64,000 nt of DNA, from positions 84,844,694-84,908,693 of the forward strand of contig CM055092.1 in assembly GCA_029204225.1 (NCBI GenBank), read 5' to 3'. The translations under genes were made by a program, and so were the position numbers. Each line of letters begins with the position of its first letter. The first letter of the stretch is position 1. The notes under the pieces were generated by a model. It did no database searches. It had not been told where the DNA came from and worked only from the letters and a program-made list of their open reading frames with translations. Origin of the DNA: Diphasiastrum complanatum (taxonomy: Eukaryota; Streptophyta; Lycopodiopsida; Lycopodiales; Lycopodiaceae). Positions 1 to 19,854 of the stretch are shown here, in pieces.

Positions 1-480
1 AGGCATTTGGCGACAGTGTCGCTTTTTCCCAAAAGGCGAAAAATGCGATAGTAGGCCAAAAAAACTTTCTAAGGCATTTAGAGACAATATGTCACCTTTT
101 TCGCAGAAATGTGAAAAATGCGATAGTGTCGGGAGAGTGCCAAAATCATTTTCTAAGTGTTTTTGACTTAGTGCTGAATTTTCCTCATGACCCAAAAATC
201 CAAACTGTGTGATGAAACAGTTCAAAAATGCAGACTGTGTGAAACGTAGTTCAAAATGCAACAGTCAAAAAACGGCAAAGGAAAAAACTAAGAAAAATAC
301 TAAGGCTTTGAAAGATAGAAACTCTCAGTTTCTTCAGACAATCTAACAACTTGCTAATAGACACATACAATCTGACATGCTCTAGACTGGATTATCAATG
401 ATTGATTTCTAGAAACCTTCCACCTGCCAAAACATTAGACACCTCTTTTCATGCACCTCTGATCAAAAAACTCTAATCAT
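1..480. repeat. Dispersed GGCGAAAAATGCG-type repeat and AT-rich flank
   Basis: The first 160 bases repeat short motifs (aaggcattt, ggcgaaaaatgcgatag, tttttcgca) about every 60 bases. The same vocabulary recurs near 33,490-33,600 (tttctaaggcatttt, aattttttcgca, ggcgaaaaag), so both places appear to hold members of one dispersed repeat. No coding signal is visible, and 180-980 is ordinary AT-rich sequence in which I see no gene. Confidence 0.45.
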
Positions 481-988
481 TCATATCAGAAAATAAAACT
501 CTGGAATCAAAAGTTTGTGAAGGAATCAAAAGTTTGTGTAGCTCATCTCGTCAACGACAATGCCAAAATACTTCTCTGGAAACCCAAAGCATTTTTTACG
601 GTGATGTATTATTTTTTGACGGTCTGCTGCTTGTTCCTCTTTATGATCATTCTAAGCTGACTTCACCGCCGCAATCTCCGTCGGATGTTTTAAGGCTTTT
701 CTTTTACTTTTCAATTCTACACACGTACTGCATACTCTCATTCGCACTTTTCGTGGAATAGAGACATTATTGAAATCTCTTTTCCAAAGTTTTGTGAAAT
801 ATGATATATACCTGTCATTGTTTTGAATCATATGCTCTTTGTATACTGAAAAAAATTTCTATTCGAGTAAAATTATCAACAAGACGGAATTTATTAGTCG
901 TTGGCATTACCTTGCAATGAAGATGAAAATATTTCTCCATCCATAACAATGTGTGTTGTGCAACATCACCCACAACCTTCGGAGATGG

Positions 989-1701
989 TTAGATATGACC
1001 GAACTTATTAATTCTGTACTTTATCCTCCATAGTCGAGAGCTGCCGAGGCTCAACACAATTTTAAATGCCCCTCTACAAACGAGGTCATTCTCCAGACTA
1101 TAGTCAAATATTTTTTTTAAACAAGGTATCAATTGTGAGGATAGAAACACGTCTTGCTCACTAGGACTCAGACCTAAATAAAAAATTCTCCATCTTTTTA
1201 TCTTTTGTTTTCCTAACTTTATCAAACAATTTGCATTGCAACAAAAAGAATGCAATGCCTCCTGAACTTGTTGATCAGCTGTCAAAAAATCTTTCCATCC
1301 TTACCAAAGGAACGCCTCCTGCGACGAAATACAATTGGCGAACATTCTTGGTAATCATTTTTCTCATTAGTCTCACTATTTGACTGATTGTTGTTTGACT
1401 CAACTTCCATGCTCTCAAATGGAGTGTCAACATTGGCACAGTGATTGTCAGAACCAAACGACCCAAATGATAATATATCATTAGAGAATATTGGTTTATC
1501 GCCAAAACATGGTCGTAAATATGATGGGACATCAACAGATGAGAACGATAAAATCCCATTGTCCTCGCTACGCACATGATTTAACAAATTCTCTATCATG
1601 TTCTCTGACACATTTTCTGACACGTCTCCTAACACATTTTCTTGTACGTTGTTTACACCGACCATTGGGGCTCCTTCATATGAATAAAACGAGAGGCTCA
1701 C
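989..1701 (-). pseudogene. Unrecognised frameshifted protein with Cys cluster
   Basis: Two minus-strand frames (1701 to 1282, then 1285 to 989) read as one protein interrupted by a frameshift near 1285. The first part (about 139 residues) is Asn/Ser/Glu-rich and ends in a basic run, FRRRRRSFGKDGK. The second (about 95 residues) has a Cys cluster, FCCNANC, followed by an amphipathic stretch with FYLGLSPSEQDVFLSSQL. The style (short Cys motif, then R..FY..L...E...L) recalls zinc-binding N-terminal regions of transposon-encoded plant proteins, but I cannot name the family. The start at 1701 is simply the first ATG. It could be a fragment of a transposon accessory protein or a chance reading frame. 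Confidence 0.3.
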
Positions 1702-2084
1702 CTCTCTGTAAATCGAGGGAAAAAAAATATTTATGAATCAACATTATGCATGTTACAACAAAAATAAAAATTATTTTAATAATTTTAAGCCTGAGAAAAA
1801 AACTTTCCATATTTGAAAAGGGAGAAAGTATAAAAGGGACCACCCAATATCATTTGAGCACGACATTTCCTGGTGAGCAGAGCGTTTTTGCAAGGCGCGA
1901 CTGAAGGCGCAAGATCCTGCACTGCATTCCCTCCCCCTTGCCTTTGCAAAATGAAGACCACCAAGTATGTCTGTAGTGTTATTTATGGGTATTTCTCGCT
2001 GTAAATTCCTAGGATTAAAAAACTTTGCCACTATTTTCCTAGGGTTGAGTAATATGTTAGTCGAATTTCGATGTAGTGCATTAA

Positions 2085-2445
2085 AAATGTGGCACATTTC
2101 GATGCCGTGCATCAAAATGGTGTGTCCAACTTGGACACACACTTTCGATGCAATTCATCGAGATGGACCACCAACTCGATGCACTGCATCAAGTTGGTGG
2201 TCCATCTCGATGTAGTGCATCAAGTTGGTCACTCACATCGATGCACTACGTCGAAATGTGCCACATTTTTTATGTGCATCGAGTTGGTGTGTCCAACTCG
2301 ATGCAGTACATCGAGTTGTATCACCAACTAGATGTAGTCCACTGAGTTGGTTAACCAGCTCGATGTACTGTATCGAGTTGGACACACCATTTCGTTGCAG
2401 TCCATCGAAATGGTGATCCATTTCGATGTAGTGCATCATGTTGTT
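2085..2445. repeat. Palindromic minisatellite, array 1
   Basis: About nine degenerate units built on two 12-base arms, CAACTCGATGCA and its exact reverse complement, separated by one base. The links between palindromes (for example aagttggtggtcc and agttggtgtgtccaact) are themselves partly palindromic. Some units carry a variant arm (catttcgatg instead of caactcgatg). The period is about 40 bases. Because the unit is self-complementary, open frames of similar composition arise on both strands and none should be read as a gene. A second array lies at 7147-7306. Confidence 0.85.
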
Positions 2446-2689
2446 GCGTTTATCTTTAGGTTATGGGAAGTAGTTTAAATTACATGTCGATGATCTTTGT
2501 AAATTAGATCCGCTGACTAAAAACTCTATTGTGATCCAATCCACAGCTAACATTTGACAAACTTTTAGCAAATTTATATTATAATGGTATGTCAAATTAA
2601 GCTTTTTTATGTGATATATTATTATTAAAGAAAAAAAATTTGATGTTGAATGACCGTGAATAACGAGTATGATTTTAATTTTCAGGAGC

Positions 2690-3157
2690 AAAAAGAAACA
2701 AACCCTCGAAAAAGAAATGACAAATGTTGAGAAATGACTAAAGTTATCACATGACAGTCAAAATTTAGGAATGTTGTCTGATACAAAGATTCCAGCAATG
2801 TTGAAGGCCAGACAAGTTGATCCATTGCCTAGACATTATTCTGATGTGAATATGGAAGATCCAAAAGGAAAGTTAGTTATAGAATCTTCCTCATCTTCCA
2901 TTAAGAAATTGTCAAATAATTTCTGGGCATTATCGTATTCTCCAGAGGAAGGACTATTTTTGTATGTGTGCAAGCTGAAAGCAACTGCTTTGACTGAGAG
3001 TAATTCGAAGTCTTGTGGTCGTATTCAAAGAATAGACTATGAGGGTGACTTTGGGGAGTCAATCCTGATTGAAACTCGGGGGACAAATGATGATGTTAGA
3101 TTATTTTCTTTGATGGAAGCTAACATGTGTTTAACATCTGTCCTGACTAGGTACTAA
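2690..3157 (+). CDS. Possible exon of an unrecognised gene (fragment)
   Basis: A coherent frame runs from a possible acceptor (ttttcag near 2685) to 3157. The upstream part reads EKEMTNVEK, one stop (TGA), LKLSHDSQNLG and then the open stretch from 2771 (128 residues). The protein is hydrophilic and of ordinary composition (a Ser run, then NNFWALSYSPEEGLFLYVCKL), unlike the low-complexity shadows nearby. I do not recognise it, and no other exon is evident. It may be a captured gene fragment. The single TGA would be an Arg CGA codon after one transition. Confidence 0.3.
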
Positions 3158-4636
3158 AAAACCATTGACCATCAGTTACAGTCCTAGATTTCTCTTTTCA
3201 AAATTACTGATGTCCCATACCATCAGCTTTTCCTTCTAGAAAATCCTTAACCACCTTATCTGATATTCTAGAGATCCACTGATCTTCTAGTTGTCCTATA
3301 ATTACTATAGGATATTATCTCTTGTTTCCAAATACTGGAGAATCCATTTTATTTGGATGACTGGCATGCCCCATCAGATGGATATCACAAATCCACACCT
3401 AATTCTATGATTTAGACAGAAGAATTAACATGGTTTCAATACTACATTCCGATCCTTACAGGTTAATGATAAGCTTCAAATCCCTATCCAGGGACAAGCT
3501 ACTATCATGTGAAGCAAGAGGAGAAGAGAGAACCTGGTAACCTAAACCCAATATATCGACGAGAGAATCCCCACCTCATTATATAGAGAGTAGAGTCATG
3601 TGCATGTAACCATACAATCCCCATGCAGGTCAACTATAAATAGATTACATCACTCCATATGTCTCAATTAGAGTGTTTGGGTCCTCTCAAGGTAATTAGT
3701 CACAAACAGTCTTGACATGGAGTTAAATCATGGCATGACCAATAATCTTGAGTACTAGAGGGCCGGTCTACCATATTAGGACTATTCCAGGTCCTTAACC
3801 GAATATGGCCATAACAACAACACTCCATAGCATACTCAAGATCCCAACCCTACTTATGTCTCATACCATAAGCAAGATCCAAACCTTAAGCATACTACCA
3901 CAAGAAAGCACTCTACACACTAGTAGCAACACTAGAGCATAAGCAAAGCAAACATTAGAGATCTCCCCTTCCCAATGGGCACCCTACTACCCTCATATAG
4001 ATGGCCCATGGGACCCCTCCAATGCACTATGGAGTTCCATGCTCATCTTGAGAGAGAGAGAAGCCTAGGGGAGTTAAAGAACCTCCAAGAACCTCCATAG
4101 GCTTATGGAAGGTCAAGAGACTCCTTCCATAACCTATGACTCTTTGAATGCCTTTCTTGTGGGAGTTGGGAACTCAATGGACACTTTAGAAGGGCGCCCT
4201 CCTACTAGGTCCCATTGCCCAAGTTGTGCATGTATACTTTGGTCCTAGACCAATAAAGTGATATGGTTCGAGGTTGAGGCCCAAGGTTTAGAACAATAGT
4301 CATCCAATGACTTTCTAACACCTCTCTAGGTTCCATACCTCCATTCAAGGCATAGACATCTACCTGTCCTCAACCAAGGATACTAGTACCTTAATTTAAG
4401 GCACCTACACTTAATCCTAAGGGTACCTCTTATCCAAGAGTCACGTGACTCCATACCTCCGACCAAGGTATAGTCACTTGTCTGCCCTTATCCAAAGATC
4501 CTAAGGGTAACCCTTATCCAAGGGTAACTTGCCATTTAGCTCCCAACACTAAATGGACCAATAGGGGTCTGAAGTACTACTAGTTACATAGGTATGTAAC
4601 ACATGTCTTCCTCCTTTTGAGCAACTCCTCACTTTC
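3158..4636. other. Non-coding, LTR-like sequence with local repeats
   Basis: No coding frame is supported. The tract at 3540-3620 (cgagagaatccccacctcattatatagagag) resembles an inverted promoter region of the kind seen in several LTRs of this window (compare 15,350 and 49,860), so part may be a degenerate LTR on the minus strand. At 4380-4545, short repeats of the type ctaagggtaacccttatccaagggtaac alternate with ccatacctccgaccaaggta. Ends of an LTR could not be located. Confidence 0.35.
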
Positions 4637-4906
4637 AGTTCAGATCACCTGCAAGAGACCCTCTTGGAGTGCGTGCACAAGGAAACCATTTCTAGCATGC
4701 TCTCTAAGGCTCCTTCAATGTTGCATCGAGTCCGACGTTTTTCTTGTGCGGGGGCTTGGTTGTTAGCTTGGCATGTTATTCCTTCTTTTCGGTTGTCTTT
4801 GACCATCTCCACCAATGCTCTTCGTCTTCGCTTGGGGCTACCTCATCCTTTGGTCTTGGGTCTCTTCAGGTGTGTTTGTGGTCAAACACAATTTCCTTTT
4901 GAGTAG
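4637..4906 (+). pseudogene. Probable C-terminal fragment of a non-LTR retroelement polyprotein
   Basis: The frame from about 4637 reads a leader, ISSMLSKAPSMLHRV, then CAGAWLLAW, then ALRLRLGLPHP, and ends in a CVCG pair. GAWL...ALR.RLGLP...C.CG is the signature I associate with the region after the reverse transcriptase of some LINE-like elements, which ends in a zinc-binding motif. Only this roughly 90-residue piece is present. No reverse transcriptase palm or endonuclease is seen upstream, and the frame stops at 4904. The identification is from pattern memory and is tentative. Confidence 0.35.
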
Positions 4907-5562
4907 GTAATTGAAAAGTTTTCTCCTAAGACGATTCCCTTCAAAACTTTAAAAATCAAGGTATCAAAAATAAAAGCACATTTTTGGGTAAAATTATTCT
5001 TTTAAGTGTAGGCTTTTTGACTTTTTAAAATCCTCAAAATGCACGTACCATATTTTCAAAAATACATTAGTAAGAAACTACACAATTATGTGCATTGAAA
5101 ATTTGATATTGTTTTAAAAAATGTCACAAAAAAAAAAATGAACTTAAAATTCATATGGCTAATTAACTCTTCGCTGAGATTTTGTTATAGGTACTTGCAT
5201 AAATCATTAATAAATTAATCATATTTTAAATGTCATCTAATTATTGGCATCTAGATATTTTCAAAATATTATAATGATTTATTAGATTGCATAAAAAGTA
5301 TCCGATAAAAAATTTCATAACAAATAAATTTATCAAAACGTAGAATAATAGTGCATAAATAACCAAGAACTTTTTATAAATCTAAGAATAAGCTCATGAA
5401 GCATAATATCTCAAATATATCATTGTGAATCTCACAGAAATAAAATCTTGATTTTCAAATTTGGTACTTTCCATTCAAATGTAAGTATCCAATAACATAA
5501 GGTTCTGGCCAATTACATTTATGTTTGCAAATCAATATCCAAAACATATTTTTCCTAAGGTA
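4907..5562. other. AT-rich non-coding stretch downstream of gene G1
   Basis: Strongly AT-rich with short A/T runs and no coding frame. It lies just 3' of the minus-strand G1 gene and would include its 3' untranslated region and polyadenylation signals if G1 was ever transcribed. Nothing else is recognisable. Confidence 0.5.
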
Positions 5563-6861
5563 TCAAGCAATATCTAGTAACATCTCAGGTAAGGCCTTCT
5601 CGGCTGATTGAGAGGCTTGCCCCTCATCAACGACATTAGTAGCCCTATTAGTGAAATCTTGAGGGGGCTCAGTAATATCATCTCTCAACCCAACTAGCTC
5701 CGCTTTTTCATTTAATAATGGGGGAACCGGTTCGGATGAGGCACTCTAGAACCTCTCACTATTGTCGACCGCTCGAGTCCCAACTTCCTGATTTTCATCT
5801 GGAAGTTCTCGAATAGCAGCCACTCTCATCTCAATATAGATTGTCTGGACTTCATCCACTTCAACGACTATGCAATTCCTATTTTTCTTAAGGGCACAAC
5901 ATGTGGTAGTACCTACATGTAAAAGTATATAAAAGAATAAGTAATTTGCAAAAAATAAAAATTAGATTTGAAAGTTAATAATCAATAATGAGAACTACTT
6001 TTAAGCAAAGAAACACATCTTCATATCTATTCCTGCAAACATGTCCAGAATCCAATCATCCTCATTCAAAAACATATCAATCAACTTATTGATTTATCTT
6101 TGAGGCTTTTGGTAAGGGTTAACCAAAGACCTATCACCCTCTAAGTGTCTTAATTTTTGAGTGACAGCCAGACAAGAAATGACATTACCACATTGCTCAT
6201 TGCAATAAATCTGCAATCTCTTTTTCTCATGGCCATCATAGTAGCCCACGGTCATCATTTCAAAAGAACTGATAAGCCGACAGCCCAGTGCACGTTCAAG
6301 ATTTGTTTTGTTCCTGCATATGTTATACCATATTAGTATAGAGACATACATTTTCAAACATTAACTAAATCAAAATAAATATCACAATATGTAATTAAAA
6401 TGGCATACCATACAAGGTACTCAATAGCATGACATGCAGTTTTCAGAGATGCAATGACTGATGATGACTGAGCCACGCTATGAAAAATCACACATCTCCA
6501 TAAAGAAGATGTTGTCAAGGCAGCAAAATCAGTCACCAGCTTCATTATTTGAGGGTAAGGAAATGGTTTCAAGTCATTAATGGAGCCAAACATTCTAAAA
6601 CCATATGGAATATCCGCAATAGCAAGAGTATACTCATGCTTTGGGACATCTTCTATCAATTTCGAGACATCGGAACAAAAAACCCAATACGTAAATGTCC
6701 TCATCAGATCCAAAAGACAAGTGAAGGTTTTATAATCCTCAGACATTGGTGGGAGGGAATCTTTTAACCGAATCCTCATTCATTCTTCCTTAGCCCTCTG
6801 TATATGCGACAAAAAGTTTGGAGGGCAATCCAAGTCCTCTCCAGCCTTTGCCTTCTTTGGT
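5563..6861 (-). pseudogene. Beta-class amino-methyltransferase domain (N6-adenine / N4-cytosine type)
   Basis: Exon 6861-6409 contains SDVSKLIEDVP and motif IV as ADIPYGF (6617-6597), where families usually have DPPYG; the first Pro is Ile here. The Trp codon of EYLVWN is split by a 95-bp GT-AG intron (6408-6314). Exon 6313 to about 6027 has NPYQKPQR, the usual K-P segment before motif I, then WILDMFAG, the first half of the SAM-binding motif. The second half follows the next intron at 5912: TTTCCALKKNRNCIVVEVDE, ending with YIEMRV. Motif IV preceding motif I defines the beta class, which methylates N6-adenine or N4-cytosine in DNA. A hydrophilic acidic tail runs past TAG 5746 to 5563. Loss of Pro in motif IV and the stops argue that this copy is inactive. 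Confidence 0.75.
6314..6408 (-). other. Intron in the G1 methyltransferase region
   Basis: On the minus strand the donor is tg|gtatgcc and the acceptor atatgcag|gaac. Joining them restores a Trp codon and keeps the frame across VW/NKTN. Other introns in the same gene fit at 7093-7375 (donor gtaagc, acceptor tttgcag), at 6950 to about 6862 (donor gtaagaat), and at about 6027-5913 (acceptor tgtag). Orderly introns show that the gene was an ordinary spliced nuclear gene or an element with introns, not a processed copy. Confidence 0.75.
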
Positions 6862-7092
6862 TGTAAAACCACAACAACAAATATATAGGTTTAATAATAC
6901 ATTATAAAGATTTAAAACAAAACATAAATATATTATTTTAACATTCTTACCTTATAATTCTAGAAAGCCAAAAAAAATTCAGACAGAGCTTTCGCTGAGC
7001 TTGTAGTCGGATAGTTTTGTTTGACCTCATCCCAGCTGGCATAGTTCAGCTGTTTCATCATCACCTCTTGAATTCCGATGAACATTTTGTGA

Positions 7093-7375
7093 CTGCAAAT
7101 ATACCGTGATGAGAAAAACATATAAAAATTATGAATGGTAAGCAACAGAAACTCGATGTTGTGCATCGAGTTGGTGTTACTAACTCGATGCAGTGCATCG
7201 AGTTGGTGTATTAGTATACCAATTGGTACACCCAATCGATGCAGTACATCAAGTTGGTACACCACTCGATGCTCTGCATAGACTAAGTATCACCAACTCA
7301 ATCAAATAAATAGATTAGCAAAGCTAGTATTATACTAATAACAACATTAAATGACTGAATATTAAAATAGCTTAC
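7093..7375 (-). other. G1 intron carrying the palindromic minisatellite
   Basis: The upstream exon ends EFK..., with donor gtaagc at 7375-7370, and the downstream exon starts after tttgcag at 7093. The exons join in frame (MHFEFK then HKMFIGIQEVM). More than half of this 283-bp intron is the palindromic repeat at 7147-7306. Confidence 0.65.
7147..7306. repeat. Palindromic minisatellite, array 2
   Basis: About four units of the same palindrome as the array at 2085-2445. The best unit is exact on both 12-base arms around 7183-7207 (caactcgatg..gcatcgagttg style), and adjoining units are degraded. It sits inside a G1 intron. Confidence 0.85.
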
Positions 7376-8528
7376 TTTTTAAACTCAAAGTGCATTTCGT
7401 CCATGCTAAGCTCCTTTAGGACTACACGTGAAAGCACTGACACAATGGTGGTCTCATCTTTAATTCCATGAAGAGATCTCCACCAGTGCCCCCTCATATC
7501 ATTAGCGAGCTCCTCAATTTGAAGGTCAAGCTTCTGTGTAGCCTCTTTCGACAAAGCAGTAAGAACAGCTTTTTCCTTCGAGACCTTTTGGCCCTTCAGC
7601 TCCTTATTCTCCCACATTCTGAATATAGTGTCTTGAATATCCCACACCTGTCCTTGACGAAAAGCCAATTGAAACCATCATATTTACGTAGGCCATGTGA
7701 CTTTTTGGACTCATCAACGACAACTCCAACCTCTAGCAAACATTGGTGCCTCAATGCACCATCAGCTTTTTCGTGAGATTTAAGATAATGAACATATTCA
7801 TGGTGAAAAAACCTTACTTTTTCAACAAATGACATCTTGGCCCTGCAATCGTTATCATTATTGTGATCCTAGACAAGTAACTTCGCTTCTTCGAGTGTTA
7901 GATTACAGAATATTTTACATTTAACACGAAAAATACTCGTAGTCGGATAACTGGCCACTAGATATCTTCACGTCTCGGCTGAGTGGGATCCACCAATAAC
8001 ATAATAATCATAAAGCTCAATTTTTTTCTCATTAAAAGCCTTCTTAGAAGGACACTGGTAAGGATCAACTAAAATAGTGAAAGACACAATAGTCGCATGT
8101 GGATTTAGCTTCATTTTCTTCATCAGATCATGCACTTTGTGAGGAGCTCTCATTATTATCGTCCTCCTACCTGTATCGGGGCCAATAGGAAGCCTATGAA
8201 CTTTTTCAATAGGCAAGGTGAAGATCTTGTGTGACGCAAGCTTTTCATTTTGAATTGTCTCCCTGATTTTGTTCTGATCAGTCTTTATTAACCTGTCTTT
8301 AGCCTCGCTATCAGAACCACCGCCACTATCAGAACTGCCAGATGATTCTTCATTGTTTTTAAATTTTTCCTTGGCCATGACTTTGACTCTCTTCATCTTT
8401 TCAGGAGAGTGCGCTGGAACCAAAAATTTTGTAGCTTGAGATAGGAGGCATTTCTTTTTTGGAGAAGGCCCTTTCGGTGAGGACAAGTCCTCACTAATTG
8501 GTTTAGTTGTTGTTTTTTCTCTTAAGCT
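7376..8528 (-). pseudogene. ParB-like domain region of G1
   Basis: The open frame from 8582 contains a low-complexity Ser/Asp linker (residues about 78-95) and then FTLPIEKVHRLPIG (residues 121-134), matching the start of ParB N-terminal domains. NPHATIVSFTILVDPYQCP follows, then LYDYYVIGGSHSAE (ending at residue 202). After the stop at 7968 the same frame continues RYLVASYPTT, NLTLEEAKLLV, a stop at 7869, DHNNDNDCRAKMSFVEKVRFF. The order of a strand with ILVDP.Q, Y.VIGG.H..E and L..EEA.LL fits the ParB/sulfiredoxin fold. The usual box-II Arg after GG is replaced (GGSHS). A helical stretch (KELKGQKVSKEKAVL...) follows the frame change near 7660 and ends at the 7375 donor. ParB-type modules bind DNA or act as CTPases or nucleases; what this one does is unknown. 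Confidence 0.6.
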
Positions 8529-9047
8529 TGGATTGGCGAGGGCTGGCGACGTAACTCCTAATTGATTTTGGAGTTTTCTCAAAAACTGTGATTCTCCATG
8601 CCGGCTACTCTCCCAGTGCAGGTATTTTGTCCAACTCTTTGCCGGCCTCGATCTCGGAGGTCTTAAATTTTAGAACCCATCCACCACACGAGGACTCATG
8701 CGGATGCTACTTTAAGAAGGTCTGGATCTGGTCCTCGACGCTGATGGACCTTCTGAATAGAGGTCTTGTCCTTGATGAGGATGGACCCGCTTGTACTGCC
8801 GGTATGGTTGGCGGTTGATCTGCTATATCTAGAGCTCCCCCCTGGTCCATGCTCGAATCAATCCATGTATCCATTGGTACAGCTTCTTGGCACGAAGGAA
8901 AAAATTGCGACATGACCGGGACAGGGATTTGTGGTCCGGCTTCCAACACTTGAGCGGCTGCTATTTCATAGGCGGTGATGGTCTCTTTTGTCTTTGACAA
9001 CTCGGTTGAAACTGCTCCTTTGAACCTATCAAAGCGGCCTTTTTCTC
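8529..9047 (-). pseudogene. Family G conserved block, G1 copy
   Basis: The frame reads GRFDRFKGAVSTELSKTKET, then a Pro-rich linker, SVEDQIQTFLK, stop, HPHESSCGGW, EIEAGKELDKIPALGE, stop, FEKTPKSIRSYVASPRQ. The same blocks occur in G2 (FDLFKGTSSLELAKAKQ; HPHESLRGCW; EIEAGKELDKISTLGE; FEKTPDSIRSYVSSPRQ) and G3 (SANQELAQAKQAL; FLHESSRGSW; IKGNELAYIPTLGT; FEKDLAAIRAYVTSSKQ). After SPRQ, G1 diverges from G2 and G3 and changes frame, which suggests an internal deletion. Function unknown; the N-terminal part looks coiled-coil. The 5' edge near 9047 is an abrupt junction with copia gag in the opposite orientation. Confidence 0.65.
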
Positions 9048-9209
9048 TACATATGAGAATGGGTGATGATCATATCGACAGACTCAGATTTAACTCTTGC
9101 TAGAGTTATCACTATGTTGCTGCAAGAAGATAATTGAAGAAGTCAACACACTCCATCTACTTCCTCCTCACAGGCTCTATATGTCAACAAAGGCTCTAAG
9201 CGACAAAAG

Positions 9210-9881
9210 TAGAAAAGCTCCAAAAAGGTTGCAACAAATCAGAAACAAACTCAAAGTCAAGCACAATCATTAGATCTACAATCGATGAAGAAGATGTTTT
9301 GCAAGTATTGCAAGCGCAATAACCATGAGATCAAGGATTGCCAAATTCTCCAAGCGAAGAACACAACCAAGCAACCTGATCAACAAACAAACATAGTCTC
9401 ATCATCTCCCCAAGTCTAAGTGGACGAAGGCGTATTCACGGTTAAAGATCAAAGCACATTTTTGGATGATTCATGGTTTTTGGAGTATGGAGCTACACAA
9501 CATATGACCAATCAACGTGAGATCTTCAACTCCTACACGCCTTACAACATGAAGAAATTTGTTCATCTTGGTGACAATAGTACTCACACTATTGAAGGTG
9601 GAGGTACTGTAAGATTGCGTTTCCAGCATGATCAGTTCAAATTACTATCAAAGGCTTTATATGTTCCTAAACTCTCTACAAATCTGTTATCAGTGCGTAG
9701 AATTATAGGTTTAGGTCATAAGGTAGAATTTGAATATGATCAATGCAAAATTGTTGATAGGAGTAATAAGATCCTTGCACTTGGTAAGAGGCAATGTTAC
9801 TTATATAGATTGGCACATTGCTATTCTGAGTCTAGCCAAGTCTTGAAAACCTCGGTTCTAGTCAATAAAGCATTACTATGA
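9210..9881 (+). pseudogene. Copia gag tail, protease and GAG-pre-integrase (E1)
   Basis: A CCHC knuckle, CKYCKRNNHEIKDC, lies at 9300-9341 (C-x2-C-x4-H-x4-C), with a stop at 9417. The following frame (9420-9881) carries the protease remnant WFLEYGATQHMT. The catalytic Asp-Ser of the usual DSGA is replaced (EYGA), so this protease would be dead. VHLGDNSTHTIEGGGTV and LYVPKLSTNLLSVRRI are the typical sequence before integrase. The frame closes with a stop just before the zinc-binding LGN motif. Very close relatives of these strings occur in the minus-strand element at 30-33 kb (CRYCKRTSHEIKDC; VQLGDNSSHSNEGEGTV), so the two belong to related lineages. Confidence 0.85.
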
Positions 9882-10480
9882 CATCATCGCTTAGGAAACA
9901 TGAATTATGCATCTATTTTGAACATGTCCAAACAATCCATGGTTCTTGATCTTGACTATCCTTCTGGTAAGATCAATTTTCTTGTCTGTCATAGCTGCAT
10001 CTTTGGAAAGCAGGCTAGGATTCCTTTTAGATCAAACCATAAGCATGCAGCAAAAGATCTGTTAGATGTTGTTCATACAGATATATGTGGACCTATGCAA
10101 ACTCTTTCATTGCTAGATGCAAAGTACTTCATTACCTTTATTGACGAATTCTCCAGAACAATAGTTGTCTATTTTATTAAATAGAAATCAGAGGCTTTCA
10201 TCAAATCCAGACGAATCAAAGCACTGAGGTCAGATAATGGGTGAGAATACATCTCCAATGAATTCAAGAATTATTGTCCTTAACAACGACATTGGCCAAC
10301 AATACATCACTTTCTATTCGCCTCAGTCAAATGGTCTTGTTGAGAGAAAGAATAGAACCTTAGTAGAATCGACAAAGTGCATGTTATCACATTCGAAACT
10401 TCCGAAGTGCTTCTGGGCTGAAGCTTTTCAACAACAACCTATATACAAAACAGATGTCCTACTAAAGGCCTCGTAGACAA
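9882..10480 (+). pseudogene. Copia integrase (E1)
   Basis: Zinc-binding and core regions are spread over two frames. The first (9900-10184) has CHSCIFGKQARIPF and VVHTDICGPMQT, with the first catalytic Asp intact, and a stop after YFIK. The second Asp (RSDNG) falls in a shifted stretch, and the catalytic Glu segment is LVERKNRTLVES (10,335-10,370). The frame closes at 10,474. The pattern identifies a copia integrase that has lost its reading frame at least twice. Confidence 0.85.
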
Positions 10481-10603
10481 AACACCATTTGAAGTTTGGA
10501 CAGGTACCAAACCTCCTTTATCAAACTTACGAGTTTTTGAATGTACTACTTTTGCGCAGATTCCTCATGATCTCATGAAGAAACTCGACCTCTAGAGTAT
10601 CAA

Positions 10604-11588
10604 ATGTGTTTTCATCATCTACACTATTTCAGATCAAGCCCACAAGTTGATGCTATCTTTCGAATTCGACATGACCAATCTGGGCAAAGCTCATTTTTGC
10701 CTTGGTATACAAATCTGCATAGACATAAAGCTGAAGTTGGTTTACATTACACAATAGAGGTACATCAACAACATGTTAGTCAGATATAATCTGATGAATT
10801 GCAAGTCAGCTCTCTCACCAATGGAACCAAGTCTCAAATTGACAAAGGACCAGTGTCTCCAAACAATTCATGAGAAACAACAGATGCGTGAATATCCTTA
10901 TCATTCTATTATAGGATCTCTTATGTACGCCATGATCTGTACCAGGCCAGACATAGCTTCTGCAGTCAGCTCTCTCAGTCAGTTTATAACTAATCTTGGT
11001 ATAACACATTGGAAGGATCTTATCAGAGTCATGAGATATTTGCAAGCTACTATGGACTTTTGCATTTGGTATGGAACGGTCGGCAACGACAAACTCAATT
11101 TACTCAGTGGTTACACAGATGCAAGTTGGGTAGGAGATGTATACACTTGTAAATCTACTTCCGGATTTACATTCTTCCTCAACAATGGTCCAGTTTTCTG
11201 GAATAGTCGCAAGCAATCTTCAATAGCTCTATCTTCCACTGAATCAAAGTATATCGCAGCCTCTCAAGCTACAAAGAAAGCAATTTGGTTGAGGAATTTA
11301 CTCTCAGATATTGGTCTAAATCAATATGCTCCGACAACATTATTTTGTGATAATCAAAGTGCCATCGCTTTATCAACCAGCCCTAGATATCATTCCAGGA
11401 GTAAGCACATTGAACCAAAGTATCATTTCGTCAGAAGCAAAGTTCTCAACGAAGAGGTCAGATTGCAGTACTGTAGAACGCAAGATATGACAACAGATGT
11501 TTTTACTAAAGCATTAAGTCTGGAGTCACATAGAAGATTCTGTGTAGAACTAAGTTTGAAGGTCAAGGCATTCAAGGATTCAGATTAA
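10604..11588 (+). pseudogene. Copia RT C-terminus and RNase H (E1)
   Basis: After a deletion that removes the catalytic RT palm, FDMTNLGKAHFCLGIQI (end of RT) leads through a stop and frame change to the long open frame 10,773-11,588. RNase H landmarks are clear: CTRPDIASAVSSLSQF, YTDASWVGD (first Asp), STSGF, SSIALSSTESKYIAAS (Glu), FCDNQSAIALS (Asp), HIEPKYHF and MTTDVFTKAL. Only this 271-residue tail remains intact. The stop at 11,586 is followed directly by the polypurine tract and LTR, the normal end of a copia polyprotein. Confidence 0.9.
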
Positions 11589-11595
11589 GGGGGAG

Positions 11596-12248
11596 TGTTG
11601 GATTATTCTCCTTCTTACCAATCGACTAATCGGTTTTAATTTTGATACATTGTTAATCCAGTTCTGTGGATTTTTTTGTGTGTTTTCATAGTCTACAAAA
11701 TTACAAGTGTGTCATGTACTTTTAGTACATCAGTGCTTTTCAAGATAGTATAATATCCATTGTAAGCTTTGTAGGCCCAAAAGGAGCTACTAGCCTTAAT
11801 AACAAGACGGTTCCCTCTTTAGGCCCTCCAAAGTAATTAATAAGGATAATAGGTCAACAAGGGCCCAATGTAGTTAAAATAGCTCCTAACAAGGGCTAAC
11901 TATCCCGCAAGATAGTTATGTTTAGTTAAGTGAGAGCATTGTCTATAACTAGGCAAGAGACATCAATTTGTGAATCTTTTGGCTCATTTGCAAGTGAGAG
12001 CTTCTAGCTTCCTCCTTGTGAATATGAGCTATGAGGATTTCCTTTGCCAGGTCTCATGTGCCTTATCTACATGAATCCATGCTCATTTACATTGCTTTGT
12101 ACTCTTCATTTCATTTCTATTGTGATTCTATGGAGATCCTTGTGTTTCTAGCTTTCTATGGATATGATATCTCAAATGCTTTGTACTTTTTTTGCTCTTA
12201 GCTTTAATTCCATTGTAATTGCTATTTGCTTAGATTTGGCACATGACA
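11596..12248 (+). repeat. LTR of copia element E1
   Basis: Starts TGTTGGATTATTCTCC right after the purine tract aagggggag and ends ...TGACA, giving the canonical TG...CA ends and a length of 653 bp. No second copy lies in the window, so divergence cannot be measured. Confidence 0.8.
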
Positions 12249-12253
12249 TTTCT

Positions 12254-12265
12254 TTGTATCAGAGC
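12254..12265 (+). other. Primer binding site after the E1 LTR
   Basis: ttgtatcagagc matches the usual initiator-Met tRNA complement TGGTATCAGAGC at 11 of 12 positions and lies 5 bases beyond the LTR end. A PBS here means that this LTR also served as a 5' LTR. Confidence 0.65.
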
Positions 12266-13045
12266 ACAGATCCATGATTCATGATGATCCTATGTGGATT
12301 CCATTAGATTTGATGAGTTTATTGTTTTTGTAGTTTTCTTTTTGTTAATTTTTGAGTTTGAATTTTTCAGGTCTGTTCAAATCAATTTTGTACATTCAAT
12401 TTCGTTTTTCATTTCTAATTTGATTCCGTAGATCTGTAGAGCTTTGTTTCACTTTAACTTGCACCAATTTTCAAGCCATTTGGATAAGAGATGCAAAAGT
12501 TATTGCACTTTTTTCAAAAGCTGTCAAAATAGGTGACTAGATTTTTGCTTTCACTTAATTTGAATTTTTCAGATTTGATCTGAGTTTTTATTTCAATTTT
12601 CTTTCCATAATATTTTAGAGCATTGTCTTACTTTGATCTGATCTATATGGCAGGTTGTTTGGATTAGTATCCAAAGAGTTATGACAGTTTTTTATTCTTA
12701 GCTCTAGTTTTGCTAGTTTTTCTTTTTTTCAAAATTTTTAGACCTGTTCTATGATTAATTCAACCTATCAAATCACCTCCAATCATTGATCTGATTCATA
12801 AGCTGATAGAGCTTGTTGTTAGCTTTTCAGAGCTACTGAGTTTGTGTGATTTGGATCAATATTGAGGGAGTTATGATCAATTAAGTGGAGATGGGTTAAG
12901 CTGGCCAGAATTTTGAAAATTTTCTTGTGGATTTTCCAAGTGAGAGAGAAGCACTTCAAATTTTCATTCTTGAAGCTCAATTTCTTTGTTAAGTTTTTTT
13001 TTTCAGCTCTTCATTTTGAAGTTTTTGTCAAAAATCACTATAAAA
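12266..13045 (+). mobile_element. Copia 5' leader without gag
   Basis: T-rich leader of about 780 bp (repeated phrases such as tttgaatttttcag, gagttatgatca, gatctgatct) following a PBS. Its style matches the leader of the minus-strand element E4 (53,220-53,600). No gag follows; sequence changes abruptly near 13,045 to telomere-like and CACTA material. I see no gene in it. Confidence 0.55.
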
Positions 13046-13115
13046 AAAAATGACCTAACCCTATCCACGCTAGCCCTGACCCTAAGGCTAAACCTAATAA
13101 TAATAATAATAATAA
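13040..13115. repeat. Telomere-like patch and (AAT)n
   Basis: cctaaccctatcc, ccctgaccctaaggctaaacct and then about seven AAT units (13,095-13,114). The first part resembles degenerate CCCTAAA plant telomere repeats. Too short and degenerate to be a true interstitial telomere array. Confidence 0.45.
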
Positions 13116-14336
13116 AAACAGACTCTCTCAAAATTTGCAGAAAACCCCAACACTCACCCAATCTAGGATAATCGTGCATCGTCCACATCAAAATACCTTC
13201 TAATTAAAATTCTCGAGATTCGATAGGATGTGAAATGTCATACACACGAATCCTCTCAAAAGAATTTGCAACTCCTTGACAATAGGTTCTAGATAGACAT
13301 CCATGTTTTTTCTACCTTGTAATGATTGGGAATGATGAGAGCAAGTAAAAGATGACTTTTTTTCATTGCCATGCATGGAGGTATGTTGTAATTCACAAGC
13401 ATCACTAGCCATGTTGTCCAAGCAGAAGATCGATGGCCATGAGGACTAATATCGTCCATAAAACCCAAGTCTTAAATGTCTTGGCTCAGTATGAAATATC
13501 GGCCACTCTCATATTTTGATGTGTTTTGCAGCCATACTATCACATGGTATTCTCATGACACCTTCAGTGGATTTATTCCTAGCATGTCAATCCATCAATT
13601 CGGCCAAGGACTGGCAACGAAACATGTGTTGGATATGTGGTAGTACTGGAAAATGGCCAACAACCTTGGATGCAACTTTGGTTCCTTGCACATCTTGTCG
13701 ATATCGTGGGGATTCACACTTAGGGCAACTTATTTTTGATTCGTGTACACCCATGTATAATATGCAATCATTTGAACATGCATGAATGCAGTTGCAATCC
13801 ATTTGAAGCGTCGCCAATATTTTTTTTACATCTTTCCTTGAATTTGGAATTGTATTGCCCTCGGGTAATAGTGAACATAACAACCTATGACAAATGCCCA
13901 ATAATGTTACAAACTTTATCAACAAGTTAGTTTTAAATTGAAACAAAAAACATCAAAGTTGTTTAAAAAGTCACCTAAATAATGCATCAACACTTTGATT
14001 ACTCCATTTGTACACAACTTGAAGATTTAGGACTAGCAAGCATGCTGACAGTATGAAAATACTTGCCCTTTCATATAAAAAAGTTGTAGCTTTAGTTCCC
14101 ATGCTTGTTTCACCTTCGGTTCTCATGTCTTTGATATTTTCATGAGCTGTGAGGTTAGCTTCTTGTATATAATTGTGATGTGCATCATTTCTAGTGATTG
14201 GAGTGGTCTCATGAGGAGGATAGTATGAATGTATCAAATCTTTCATTATATCATCTTCCTCTTCAAAACAATGATTGTGTTCTTGGTTTGAAATGTCGAT
14301 TCTTGTGCTTGTCGATCGTCGACGAAGATACTCCAA
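13116..14336 (-). pseudogene. CACTA (En/Spm) transposase tnp2-type, fragment
   Basis: On the minus strand, 14,336 to 13,971 gives FLYERASIFILSACLLVLNLQVVYKWSNQSVDALFR. The next frame (13,946-13,587) has the conserved SNDCILYMG, SCPKCESPRYRQD and KVVGHFPVLPHIQHMFRC. Below it come WHARNKSTEGVMR, NMDVYLEPIVKELQILL (13,330-13,270) and WTMHDYPRLGE near 13,190. These are successive landmarks of tnp2 transposases: KWSN, CP.DC.LY, C..C...R, FPL.PRLQR, DVYLEPL..EL, HD.P. Catalytic domains further downstream are missing and the frame is broken several times. The remnant ends at the AAT patch. No terminal inverted repeats were found. 14,337-14,580 upstream holds a short frame I cannot assign. Confidence 0.8.
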
Positions 14337-14584
14337 CGATGCTTGTCACATTTTTTGAATAGTTTTCTTATGTCGTTTAAAAAATGTAGCAAGCCCAGGC
14401 CCTCCAAAATCCTCTTCGTCTCCATAATACTATAAATGTTGAGAACATCATACAATATATAATACATGTTAAAACAAAACAAAAACAATATGGTGATAAT
14501 AAACAATAATAGAAACAAGACTTCACTACCAAAGATCATAAACAGGTTCATCAATCAGAATGTAAGTGATATACGTGCATCTTA

Positions 14585-15015
14585 ATGTCTCATTCAAAGG
14601 CAAGAAGAAGACCAATTGAGGCAAGAAGAATCATCAAAAGGAGGCCAAGGAGGAGGACTCACCATCAAGTTCAAAAGACAAGAAGAAGATTGACAAGACA
14701 TAGGACAAGTGCTTCTTTTGTGGTAAAAAAGGGCACTTTGCATCAGAATGTTTCAAGAAGAAGAAGGCACAAGAAGAAAAACAAAGCAACATTGCACATC
14801 AAGAGGAGGAGGAGGATAAAAAATAATCATCCTTAATGGCATCCAACTCAACACCTTCATCAAAGACCAATCCAAGTGAAGCATGGTGGATTGATAGTGG
14901 GGCAAGCTCCCACATGACATTCCAAAAGGAGTAATTTTCAACTCTACTCTCTTATGGTGCTAAAAAGTTCATTTTTACAACTAGTGATCAAGAGTGTAGG
15001 ATAGGTGGTGTAGGG
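14585..15015 (+). pseudogene. Copia gag-protease fragment
   Basis: A Lys-rich gag tail leads to the zinc knuckle CFFCGKKGHFASEC (14,710-14,751) and the protease start WWIDSGASSHMTF (about 14,884). DSGA is intact, but there are stops upstream (TGA, TAG) and after the motif (TAA). The fragment is cut at 15,020 by an unrelated LTR in the other orientation, so only about 430 bp of this element remain. Confidence 0.8.
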
Positions 15016-15020
15016 ACTAT

Positions 15021-15640
15021 TGTGAAAAATTTGGAATATTCACACATGTGGGGAACCACCATAAATGTGTGAATGATCTTACCAAAGTTTTGTGTAAGCA
15101 CCTAGACCACATGGAGAGTGAAATTCACAATCTACCTCAAGAATCCAAGGCTTAAGCACAATCTAGAATGCTATTGATCAAAGCTTCATTAATTCCACAC
15201 GTGTGAAAAAGTAAACAAGCATTAAATGTATGAAGAATACTCCAAACTCAGGTTAGAGAGAGAAACACAATACAAGCAAAACAATATGAGATCCAATTTT
15301 GACATTATGACAACCTCTATCTTGATTCATCATCCATAATTGTGAGGGAATCCCCATCACATATATAGAGAGAACAATAGCTCGTGGTAGTACTAGCATG
15401 CCTCTATTTCTATCCACCTCAAAGAGTGTAATCTACCAAAATTGTGACACATATCACTTTGCATGCATGGTTGTTCACCAACTCCTACCTACTTTCTACA
15501 AATGACAAATTCTAAGCTAGATATGTAAAATTCTACTTGCATGTGTCCATTACAACATTTGCATGCCTTGCATGTCACAATAATGGAAACTTAGGACACA
15601 ATGCATTTGATGTGGCTCGAGCTCCTACTAGCCCAAATTT
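15021..15640 (-). repeat. Diverged LTR related to that of element E4
   Basis: Begins tgtgaaaaatttggaatattcacacatgtgg and shares the string of features of the E4 LTR (49,542-50,384): attcacacatgt, gttagagagagaaa, an internal tatatagagag, acctactttctacaaatg, catgtgtccattaca, ggaaacttaggaca, gcatttgatgtggct. It is followed on the plus strand by a minus-strand RNase H, as expected for the 3' LTR of a minus-strand element. The inner end is approximate. Confidence 0.6.
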
Positions 15641-15990
15641 GGCCATTTCTATGTCTAAATTGGGCTGATTGGTTGTCATAATAGATCCAAGGTACCTCAT
15701 CAGCCTCCATAGCTTGAAGCTCCACCAAAGCCTTTTGAGCCATAAGACCTCCTTGCATGTTGATGTCAAGGCCTTATACTCAGATTCAGTTGAAGACAAT
15801 GAAATAGTATCTTGCTTTTTGGAAAGTGACGATATACTTCATCGCAAAGGAATGTAGCAAATTCACTTGTAGATTTTCTATCCACTTTGTCACTTACAAA
15901 ATCCGAGTCACTATAGGATCTTAAGCCAAGATCAGTCCCTTTGTAGAGTATGCCAAAATTCCTAGTTGATGAGATGTATCTTAGGACTCT
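15641..15990 (-). pseudogene. Copia RNase H fragment
   Basis: Minus-strand translation gives LGLRSYSDSDFVSDKVDRKSTS, then SSTESEYKALTSTCKEVLWLKRL, the first-Asp and Glu segments of copia RNase H. It ends in TTNQPNL, close to the DNQ motif. Nothing of RT lies upstream; 15,991-16,185 is LTR-like debris (cttgagtttctacaagg is shared with the E4 LTR). Confidence 0.7.
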
Positions 15991-16185
15991 TTTGAGTTAG
16001 AATAAAAGTAGAACTACTGTGTTTTTGTATTGTGAGATGCATGTCATATTTGACCAATCTAGACATTGTGCATGTCACAAATAACAACTAGACTTAAATG
16101 CATGTGATGTAGCTTGAGTTTCTACAAGGATAAAATTGATATTTACAACTTGTAACTTTACATGCAAGATGAATTTCTTCATCAA

Positions 16186-17222
16186 CCCCAATAGTCAAGT
16201 TGAATGGATTTTTATTCTTCACAACTGTTACATTGTACTTGGGATCATCCAAAAGGATGAATCTTGAAAATGTCCTTTATGTACCATCTATCACTAAGAA
16301 CTTGTTGAGTGTTGGCCAATTAATGGATAATGGCCTTGATGTACAGTTTAAGCATGGAGTTTGTTCCATTTTAAAAATGATGATTGCATAGCTAAAGTAT
16401 TTAAAAAAATGGAGTGGCGGAGAGGAAAAATAGATCTCTTTGTGAGTGTGCTAGAGCCTTAAGGCTATATGCTTCTCTACCTTTGGGGTGAGGCAATTAC
16501 TTGTGCTAACTTTTGTGCAATAGATTGCCCAATCAAGCCATTGGAGGAATCACACCATATGAAGCTCTATCTAGAGAAAAGCCAAATCTCAAGGATCTAA
16601 GGATATTTGGATCCACATGCTATGTACACCATTCTTTGGAGACAAGGAAGAAGAATGATGCAAAACTTCCATCAAAAGCATCTTTGTGGGATATGATGAG
16701 AATAGAAAAGGGTATAGAATCTTCCAATCCCATCACTAAGAAAGTCATAGTGAGTAGGGATGTTATTTTTTATGAAGGACATGCTTGTAAAGTGGATGAT
16801 AATGCTACTAATCATCTTGATGTCAAAGACCATGCTAGGATGGAGGAGGAGCTTCAAAGTGATCAAGAGCTTGAGGATCCAACTCAAGATCCAAGGACTC
16901 CAAGAAGATCCACAAGATCAAGGGTTGAGAGCCATTGAGGCTCACTTATGATGGCAGAGGTGATCAAAGAGAAGACATTTCATCTTTTACTTCATACACT
17001 TTCCTTACTTCAATGCTTGATGAACCAACTTTCTATGAAGATGCTTGTAAATCAAAAAGTTGGATGAATGCAATGCAAGTGAATTATGATGCTCTCATGG
17101 AGGATCATACTTGGGAGCTTGTTGATCTTTCTCAAGGGAAGAAACCACTTGATTGCAAGTGGGTGTATAGATTGAAGTATAATAAAGAAGGATCAATAAT
17201 AAGTATAAAGCGAGACTTGTAG
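16186..17222 (+). pseudogene. Copia relic A: pre-integrase, integrase tail, start of RT
   Basis: LENVLYVPSITKNLLSVGQL (from 16,260) is the pre-integrase segment. After a gap, the end of integrase appears at 16,513-16,938 (RLPNQAIGGITPYEALSREKPNLKDLRIFG, then the RDVIFYEG strand and RRSTRSR). The RT start is at 16,935-17,222 (SKSWMNAMQVNYDALMEDHTWELV, CKWVYRLKYN). The integrase catalytic core is deleted. The relic breaks off at 17,222 inside VAKGF, where a different copia copy takes over. Confidence 0.85.
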
Positions 17223-18790: not shown

Positions 18791-19098
18791 ATACGCAGGG
18801 AATTAGAGTCATTTCTCACTTTCTCAGAGAAGCTCTTGCCAAATTTTTAAGCAAATTTTCAACTGTCTCTATTTGTGACCAAACTTCACACACGCCTTCC
18901 TCAACACTCATAACCACCTGCTCCACTCTTGTTTCTATCGATTCCACTCCCATTCATTCAAAATCCATCATTTTCACCTTTTTGAGTCTTTTTATCTTTT
19001 TTTAAAGCTTTTTTCTCCTTTTTCACTCCCCAGTCATTATCGCATCGTACCCAACCCTTACCTTACCTTTGTAAAGACCCCAACCGGCCCCCATCATC
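18791..19098 (+). other. Pyrimidine-rich non-coding stretch
   Basis: C/T-rich, with no feature recognised. It leads into an orphan frame of the same C-rich composition, so the boundary with the copia relic is probably near 18,800. Confidence 0.3.
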
Positions 19099-19754
19099 AT
19101 GGCATTTTCCTCAACCCTCGATAAACAACCCTCTATCCCTTCCGATGAAATCGACACCAAACATGTGATTATACGTGAAGTCCCTACCGTGCTACCCAAA
19201 TCATGGATCTGCCTACGAAGTCTCAGATCGCTCCAAAGATCAAAACCACTGGCCCTCTCCTCGAAGCAATGGGAATTTGCCCAACAATCTTCTCCTCCGC
19301 CCTTAACATGCAAATCATCCTCATGGCCTACGCCACGTGGAATGAGAACAAAAACCATTTTTACATCAAGTACCATGGTACCATGCATCGTGTGTGTGTG
19401 AATGCTAACTCCCTGGCTACCACCGGAATCCGTTATGGTGATAGACCCAAGCCAAGCCACTGCCATGCTCCTAAACTCATCAAACCATACCTGACCCCTC
19501 CTGCTGAATCCATTATGCACATGAACAATGGTTATCTGATAGAGGCCATCAATGACCCCACTATCCAAGCTGCCGCTCATCTATTGAGCAATTTCCTAGC
19601 CATTGGAAGCTTGCATAAGGAACACATTCAGTCCAACCTTCTCAGCCAAATTGTAAAATCCTATAAGAAATTCCTAGCCCCTCGGTTGTGCCCTATGATT
19701 GGCATACCTTCATATCTCCGAGTTGATGCGGGCCATAAAACCCAACACGTGTGA
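19099..19754 (+). CDS. Orphan open frame, unrecognised (frameshifted)
   Basis: Two overlapping frames (19,099-19,401 and 19,203-19,754) read as one protein if a frameshift near 19,200 joins HVIIREVPTVLPK to MDLPTKSQIAPKIKTTGPL. The second frame has 183 residues of normal globular composition (AYATWNENKNHFYIKYHGTM, ATTGIRYGDRPKP, MNNGYLIEAINDPTIQAAAHLL). C-rich base usage differs from the AT-rich neighbours. It precedes a gypsy integrase scrap and a family G fragment on the same strand. It could be the N-terminal part of a family G member or a gag of an unfamiliar element. I cannot name it. Confidence 0.4.
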
Positions 19755-19854
19755 CCGAATCACCGTGGGGCCCCTTCTCTCCGCCCTTGCTGTTACCCTC
19801 CTTGAATAGATTGTTCGGGGTTTTACTCATTCTTACGTCCTCTCGACCACCGTT

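Follow-up and report, generated by a model that had tools for sequence, protein, structure and literature searches.

Introduction

ParB proteins find palindromes, and DNA methyltransferases of the beta class methylate adenine at N6 or cytosine at N4; to our knowledge, the eukaryotic writers of these two marks (6mA and 4mC) are few and disputed. Here we describe a gene that joins a ParB-like domain to a beta-class amino-methyltransferase (MTase) in a stretch of 64,000 nucleotides from the clubmoss Diphasiastrum complanatum (assembly GCA_029204225.1, contig CM055092.1, positions 84,844,694 to 84,908,693), called here the window and numbered from its first letter. We think it rather probable that a dead copy and a fragment of another, both in the window, represent a two-gene DNA transposon family of the clubmoss and, as we infer, of a fern, in which the ParB-MTase reads the palindromes of its own element.

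The two domains also occur together in phages: Bce_0392 is a phage-type ParB-methylase fusion, and nicking by a ParB-methylase is described in excerpts of the paper cited here (PMC5512222). The plant protein has the order of these fusions (Bce_0392 and the L090 family), ParB followed by a beta-class MTase in one protein, and the MTase domains can be aligned. Unlike them, it has a mid region, an additional N-terminal domain and an insert in the ParB-like domain, and its gene, which is split by introns, sits in a transposon with a palindrome array; queries with the plant ParB-like part retrieved no viral relative, and queries with the MTase part only distant ones.

Mobile elements may carry a DNA methyltransferase of their own. 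Excerpts of one paper attribute a Dam-like adenine MTase to DIRS elements and a C5 DNA methyltransferase (DNMT) to LINE and DIRS elements of Symbiodinium and to retrotransposons of Klebsormidium; they also cite marine viruses in which DNA transposons carry a DNMT (PMC5890265). As these excerpts have it, the DIRS, LINE and Klebsormidium elements resemble the clubmoss family in bringing along their own enzyme; they are retrotransposons with Dam-like or C5 enzymes, whereas here a plant DNA transposon carries a beta-class amino-MTase, a ParB-like domain and a palindrome array. Passages of another paper describe bdelloid N4CMT, a host gene with a chromodomain, and a Marchantia 4mC enzyme without additional N- or C-terminal domains (PMC8885841). 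By that account both are, like the clubmoss enzyme, bacterial-type amino-MTases in a eukaryote, N4CMT likewise with an extra targeting domain; they are host genes, whereas the clubmoss gene is part of a mobile element and has a ParB-like domain in place of the chromodomain.

The bacterial ParB-parS system resembles the present family in that palindromic sites cluster near the gene for a protein with a ParB-like domain; here an MTase is attached, and the putative sites are 21 bp long, have a variable centre and differ between subfamilies. TnpA of Spm and VANC of VANDAL are element-encoded proteins thought to act on the repeated sites of their element, affecting methylation or silencing. We know of no amino-MTase or ParB-like domain in these systems, whose sites are subterminal or tandem, as against a palindrome array between divergent genes here.

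Among the titles and abstract openings listed by searches of one open-access literature collection, none described a DNA transposon with a ParB-MTase, and DUF7869, the domain encoded by the other gene of the element, was not found mentioned in that collection. The passages of the Ceratopteris and Azolla genome papers that contain our search terms make no mention of such an element (PMC9477723, PMC6786969).

Results

A dead gene for a ParB-like methyltransferase in the window

Five exons of one gene, with splice sites placed by eye and an uncertain 5' end, lie on the minus strand of the window from 8669 to 5566 and encode a ParB-like part followed by a beta-class MTase part. Exon 1 (7376..8669) holds a basic/acidic linker, the ParB-like domain and the first part of the mid region, together with two in-frame stops and a frameshift near 7665; within it, the ParB/sulfiredoxin (Srx)-like domain and the stretch after it, our query region, whose homology was found by HHalign, occupy 7674..8228. 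Intron 1 (7093..7375, GT-AG) contains a palindrome array and is followed by exon 2 (6951..7092), with the rest of the mid region, and intron 2 (6855..6950, GT-AG). Exon 3 (6409..6854) encodes the N-terminal MTase part, with motif IV (DIPY) at 6603-6614, and intron 3 (6314..6408, GT-AG) separates it from exon 4 (6033..6313), with PYQKPQ as MTase motif X and DMFAG as the first part of motif I. Intron 4 (5913..6032) has the donor GA in place of GT, and exon 5 (5566..5912) encodes the end of the motif I region and an acidic C-terminal tail; exons 2 to 5 each contain one in-frame stop. With six in-frame stops, one frameshift and one lost donor, this copy is a pseudogene, and no activity is possible in its present state. 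Motif I is not intact: by the same splicing by eye, two residues of FSGSG are gone at the lost donor.

A first-pass annotation of the window had read 5563-8582 as a ParB-like domain fused to a beta-class MTase in a spliced plant gene, and this main observation was right. The peptides that it quoted are all present on the minus strand of that interval: exon 1 holds FTLPIEKVHRLPIG, ILVDPYQCP, YYVIGGSHSAE and NLTLEEAKLLV, exon 3 holds ADIPYGF, exon 4 holds NPYQKPQR and WILDMFAG, and exon 5 holds ALKKNRNCIVVEVDE. The GT-AG introns that it placed between them are found in three of four cases (7375-7093, 6950-6855 and 6408-6314), the fourth (6032-5913) being the one with the GA donor. It was silent on the pseudogene state, the divergent DUF7869 gene, the palindrome arrays, the transposon ends and the second, partial copy at 577-3154.

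The relatives form a DNA transposon family

The gene is highly repetitive. In the Diphasiastrum assembly (1.7447 Gb in 5176 contigs), a first look gave 1605 candidates for PF01555 (the MTase), 1612 for the ParB exon and 2953 for DUF7869, and all of the 150 that were scored of each matched; some small contigs repeat chromosomal copies, so these numbers are not counts of unique loci. The scored MTase matches are scattered over contigs C1-C24 and small contigs. Ten-kb loci fetched around 20 of the MTase matches contain the MTase in every case and the ParB-like part and the mid part in ten each, and in all ten with both domains ParB precedes the MTase on the same strand. Five further loci were picked by a ParB match; two have both parts, L030 in the usual order and L031 not. 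Genome-wide, ParB lies 1.0-2.2 kb upstream of the MTase on the same strand in 12 of 12 pairs among the matches listed, and the same order recurs in 7 of 7 fetched fern-like contigs (see below). The claim of a fusion, as opposed to two unrelated neighbours, is thus borne out by a fixed order, L031 excepted.

Alignments between copies stop at one right end (five copies) and at one left end. In the young dominant subfamily, these ends are fixed and carry inverted repeats, AACACGATGAC on the left and AACATGATGAC on the right. A search with the left end gave 1077 candidates, of which 40 were scored and matched at 95-100% identity, 40 of 40 starting at query base 1; the right end gave 896, and again the 40 scored all matched (90-100% identity). 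The flanks of 15 fetched left-end matches differ from one another. Six left-right pairs span 5.9-9.4 kb, with left termini AACAC(A/G)ATGAC (AATACG... in one copy), and a 4-bp target duplication is exact in four of the six and agrees at three of four bases in the other two. Among the matches listed, the geometry is constant: left and right ends lie on the same strand in 6 of 6 cases, as do left end and MTase in 4 of 4 and right end and MTase, 1.1-1.3 kb apart, in 10 of 10, and the left end and DUF7869 lie on opposite strands in 6 of 6.

The DUF7869 gene is located inside these ends. Its profile match in L032 reaches 7.2e-35, and in 6 of 25 loci (L010, L011, L013, L016, L026 and L027) DUF7869 or parts that flank it are found upstream of the ParB-MTase in divergent orientation; in L013 the divergent DUF7869 is only a fragment, and another, belonging to the next copy, lies downstream. 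A possible D-D-D/E triad can be read by eye, and the DUF7869 protein is probably the transposase of the element. The relatives of the window gene are therefore a DNA transposon family that has inverted ends, duplicates 4 bp of its target and carries a DUF7869 gene, as foreshadowed by the earlier guess that a plant mobile element was the carrier. The window copy's membership in this family rests on protein homology and gene order, since its own ends were not found. Copies also occur in tandem: four MTase matches lie 4.4-4.6 kb apart on one strand of contig 22 (12.333-12.347 Mb), and L013 holds parts of two copies.

Intact copies in fern-like contigs

Scanning a prokaryote genome collection with the ParB profile, by way of one degenerate peptide pattern, gave three contigs (L056-L058), all in the metagenome-assembled genome (MAG) uncultured Trichormus sp. 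ERR2144891_bin.1 (CAKZGI01). The genes in this MAG read as exons with introns between them, and it has 29 copia reverse-transcriptase matches, 25 of them over the cut-off, compared with none in 14 control genomes. Trichormus azollae is a symbiont of the fern Azolla. Because of the introns, the copia matches and this symbiosis, the contigs almost surely belong to the host fern. A GTDB species genome labelled Trichormus thus holds intron-bearing, plant-like contigs with copia, probably as host contamination.

The search for intact homologues that the first-pass annotation had proposed succeeded here. All eight DUF7869 matches in the MAG lie in stop-free frames (seven of 873-924 amino acids and one of 529), and ParB matches occur on nine contigs, six in stop-free frames of 562-594 amino acids, one in a stop-free frame of 278 and two with stops. 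Wherever both genes and an intact spacer are present among the fetched contigs (four of four, L072-L075), the arrangement is DUF7869 on the minus strand, a palindrome array, and then N-terminal domain, ParB, mid region and MTase on the plus strand; in L076 both genes are present and divergent and the spacer is absent, and L077 and L078 start downstream of DUF7869. The family is conserved between the two plants: the MTase of the window copy is 54% identical to that of the fern, against 41 and 42% for representatives of two further clubmoss subfamilies, and an intron within motif I is common to the fern and window genes. Seven fern matches with at most one mismatch to the clubmoss terminal repeat were found, one of them exact (L074 at 1360). 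The site at L074 1360 (AACATGATGACC) is identical to the clubmoss right terminus read inwards, lies on the DUF7869 side and may be an element end, which is suggestive only.

Arrays of palindromes

The palindromes of the family are all 21 bp long and have the common frame A..C.ATGC...GCAT.G..T with a variable centre; this template was drawn by eye from the fern and clubmoss arrays themselves. The fern units are AGTCGATGCnnnGCATCGACT and GGTCGATACnnnGTATCGACC, the dominant clubmoss type is AACCTATGCTnAGCATAGGTT and the window type is ACTCGATGCAnTGCATCGAGT. In the seven fern-like contigs, the 6311 bp of spacer contain 31 template sites and the 39174 bp outside it a single one. The 19-bp core of the clubmoss palindrome occurs 1517 times in the genome, as compared with 0 for the reversed pattern. 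In the window, template sites are found at 2174, 2296, 7151, 7183 and 7264 only (shuffled loci gave 1 in 702 kb), the last three in the array at 7150..7290 (type ACTCGATGCANTGCATCGAGT) in intron 1 of the pseudogene. The palindrome of the window subfamily is closer to the fern type, and so are its MTase and ParB proteins. Around the first nine palindrome clusters on contig 1, the flanking DNA matches the C19 element in six.

The clusters at L059, L062 and L064 on contig 1, to which we return below, are of the same palindrome type and are perhaps derivatives or represent another use of the sites. In three deletion copies (L063, L066 and L067), the array is followed by its inverted copy; the reversal falls close to bases 4232-4265 of the C19 reference. 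A single site, (C/T)ACCCATGC(T/C)TAGCATAG(G/C)TG, recurs in four clubmoss copies upstream of or close to the DIPY exon (gene-sense positions L013o 4538, L017o 4833, L024o 3822 and L027o 3684).

The remaining two template sites of the window belong to a second, partial element. A DUF7869 gene fragment at 577..846 on the minus strand (53% identity to L032) and an exon for the N-terminal domain of a ParB-MTase at 2771..3154 on the plus strand are divergent, and between them lies a palindrome array (2085..2449) with template matches at 2174 and 2296 and weaker ones around. Because the array stands between these two gene remnants, 577-3154 is a second, partial element in the head-to-head order seen elsewhere in the family.

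The methyltransferase and ParB-like domains

The MTase part of the window copy matches PF01555 (N6_N4_Mtase) with an E-value of 9.5e-9 and 36 bits, against a cut-off of 26.7, which is also exceeded by L027 (7.7e-13, 49.3 bits) and by the fern exon (34.9 bits); its profile matches the structures of RsrI, MboIIA and CcrM at 1e-9 to 2e-9. Motif IV of the beta class is defined as (D/N/S)(P/I)P(Y/F/W). In one alignment the motifs follow the order IV, X, I, namely DIPY, PYQKPQ and DLFSG(S/T)GTT, with IV before I as the first pass had expected of a beta-class enzyme, and on the strength of these features the predicted assignment to the beta class, of 6mA or 4mC type, is firm.

The MTase domain aligns with those of phage ParB-methylases (HHalign E 2.9e-7 over 200 columns), and a tblastn search of phages with it gave 61 records, with 24.7-35.1% identity among the 20 matches listed. 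When viral contigs were scanned four times with ParB or MTase queries from the plant, no ParB relative turned up, and one of the scans gave 11 loci with distant MTases; with no ParB relative and distant MTases only, a viral origin was rejected. The idea that a plant or a plant mobile element had acquired a ready-made cassette holds for carriage by a mobile element and is not supported for a direct phage ParB-MTase source: the MTase aligns with the phage proteins and the ParB-like domain does not (HHalign probability 0.2%, with no alignment, against one narrow phage ParB family).

A profile of the plant ParB-like domain (12 sequences, 9 after filtering, with an effective number of sequences of 2.0) was compared by HHalign with 18 ParB_N/Srx domains (17 hand-picked from 30 candidate frames plus one phage domain) and matched them with 72.7% probability, P 3.2e-5 and a score of 35.0 over 90 columns. 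The maximum was 17.8 in 60 shuffles of the query and 18.1 in 60 shuffles of the target, none of either reaching 35.0, and five decoy profiles scored 10.4-20.0. A profile of the clubmoss sequences by themselves gave P 1e-5. The elements LPI..., GG.H...A and EEAKLLAWDHN, the last placed by eye, are roughly collinear. The case for ParB/Srx homology of the domain is, on this evidence, no more than moderately strong. In the curated profile searches DUF6551 recurs at E 0.016-0.087, below its cut-off. Of the two profile matches looked for at the outset, the MTase thus passes its Pfam cut-off, while the ParB-like domain has no Pfam match and is recognised by HHalign only.

Selection

The fern genes are under purifying selection. 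The mean ratio of nonsynonymous to synonymous differences (pN/pS) is 0.09 in the ParB, mid2 and both C-terminal MTase exons and 0.13 in the exon for the N-terminal part of the MTase; the N-terminal domain has 0.39, and the two parts of DUF7869 have 0.34 and 0.23. These values come from 5-7 sequences per domain, among which synonymous differences are near saturation (pS 0.61-0.83). This tighter constraint on the ParB-MTase than on DUF7869 suggests that the methylating protein matters for the survival of the element. Between three clubmoss subfamilies, omega for the MTase exons (n=11) is 0.14-0.29, with one pair undefined; the three close pairs among L011, L013 and L028 give 1.05-1.11 and other pairs within the dominant subfamily 0.25-0.59, a pattern such as would be expected of functional source lineages that leave dead copies.

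Neighbouring sequence

Beyond the 5' end of the pseudogene, copia-like reading frames can be read on the plus strand at 9420-11588 of the window, with relatives of up to 90% identity in L009 and L010.

Discussion

We propose that the elements of this family have two genes: one for the DUF7869 protein, a putative transposase, and another, in the opposite direction, for a protein predicted to run from an N-terminal domain through a ParB/Srx-like domain and a mid region to a beta-class MTase that would write 6mA or 4mC, with the array of 21-bp palindromes between the start regions of both genes in the fern copies. By analogy with ParB on parS, the ParB-like and mid parts may bind the palindromes as a dimer and so bring the MTase to the element, where methylation would follow. 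The methyl mark might then regulate the shared divergent promoter region, counter host silencing by 5-methylcytosine (5mC) and so sustain expression, or prepare or label the element for its transposase. That the ParB-MTase binds its own array and methylates there is the simplest reading, since both domains are in one protein and adjoin palindromes that differ between subfamilies. More tentatively, and with doubts that we share, lycophytes and ferns could carry an ancient superfamily of DNA transposons with a ParB-parS-like marking system, in which the ParB-MTase would read a co-evolved array and write a 6mA or 4mC self-mark, by which the element would keep transposing or evade silencing by host 5mC.

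Several observations weigh against the proposal that these elements carry a ParB-MTase for their own arrays. Gene order has exceptions: the MTase is inverted in L031, DUF7869 and ParB-MTase share one strand in L032, and among the matches listed ParB-DUF7869 and MTase-DUF7869 pairs are each divergent in two cases of three and on one strand in the third. The arrays are patchy, with at least three template sites in five of the 20 clubmoss ten-kb loci, two in one, one in four and none in ten; in the loci with a divergent DUF7869, an array lies between the genes in L011, L013 and L027 and none lies there in L010, L016 and L026, and the array of the window copy is intronic, not intergenic. On contig 1, no recognisable element was found within about 2.3 kb of the palindrome cluster at L059, L062 and L064 (three of the nine sampled), and at L063 and L065 the match to C19 spans just 0.5-0.6 kb or so around the array. 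Ends and target duplications are known from the young dominant subfamily only, a scan of window positions 1-20000 for the ends of the window copy gave a single near match, at 824, and it is we who infer the role of the DUF7869 protein. As to the ParB-like domain, Pfam, PHROGs and NCBIfam gave no ParB match and the PDB no usable sequence match, a fern-only profile reached no better than P 0.003, and against four sulfiredoxins alone one of 60 shuffles reached the observed score. A structure model of fern exon 1 was poor (predicted local distance difference test, pLDDT, 37.8), as was one of the ParB-like domain with phage rows added (pLDDT 48.4), rows that make any positive partly circular, and the 50 Foldseek matches listed for such low-confidence models include no ParB. 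The inversion in L031, the patchy arrays and the missing ends of the window copy leave our estimate unchanged, since dead copies can be expected to suffer rearrangement and deletion.

Other explanations differ mainly in who reads the palindromes. The array might belong to the DUF7869 transposase or to a host factor, with the ParB-MTase methylating DNA generally and without reading it, a doubtful alternative that we nevertheless take seriously: the arrays are close to both genes, and in the clubmoss deletion copies L066 and L067 left end and array survive with no MTase in the fetched stretch, as would fit cis sites of a transposase. Yet the arrays are internal and not at both ends, and the palindrome of the window subfamily is nearer to that of the fern in step with its MTase and ParB, a point weakened in that DUF7869 would track the same history. 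If the ParB-like region were instead a DNA-binding domain peculiar to plants and not related to ParB, so that the MTase alone would be of bacterial type, the missing curated profile match and confident fold would be explained; the HHalign score over 90 columns, which no shuffle of 120 and no decoy attained, and the rough collinearity of the conserved elements make this unlikely.

It is more improbable still that the ParB-like domain is a nickase or nucleotidase that serves in transposition or in attacking other DNA, while the MTase shields the DNA of the element itself. Against this, nickase activity has been described as showing largely no sequence specificity, whereas the elements here keep site arrays of a specific type, and no nuclease residue can be assigned in the domain. 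An ordinary single-copy host gene or bacterial contamination, which has the bacterial type of the MTase as its sole point in favour, has next to no probability: the introns, the 150 scored MTase matches over many contigs and the inverted ends and target duplications of the relatives all speak against it, and repetitiveness, ends and introns rule it out. Our preference for a ParB-MTase that reads the array of its own element stands beside these alternatives with the reserve expressed above.

The family is a concrete candidate for a 6mA or 4mC writer, given intact genes in the fern-like contigs, candidate recognition sites and a mobile context, and DUF7869, a domain of unknown function, would gain a likely role as a transposase. 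Were the mark indeed written, the family would exemplify a transposon that carries an epigenetic code of its own, and early vascular plants would have in it a source of marks other than 5mC; if true, this would amount to a second, mobile code of DNA methylation in land plants.

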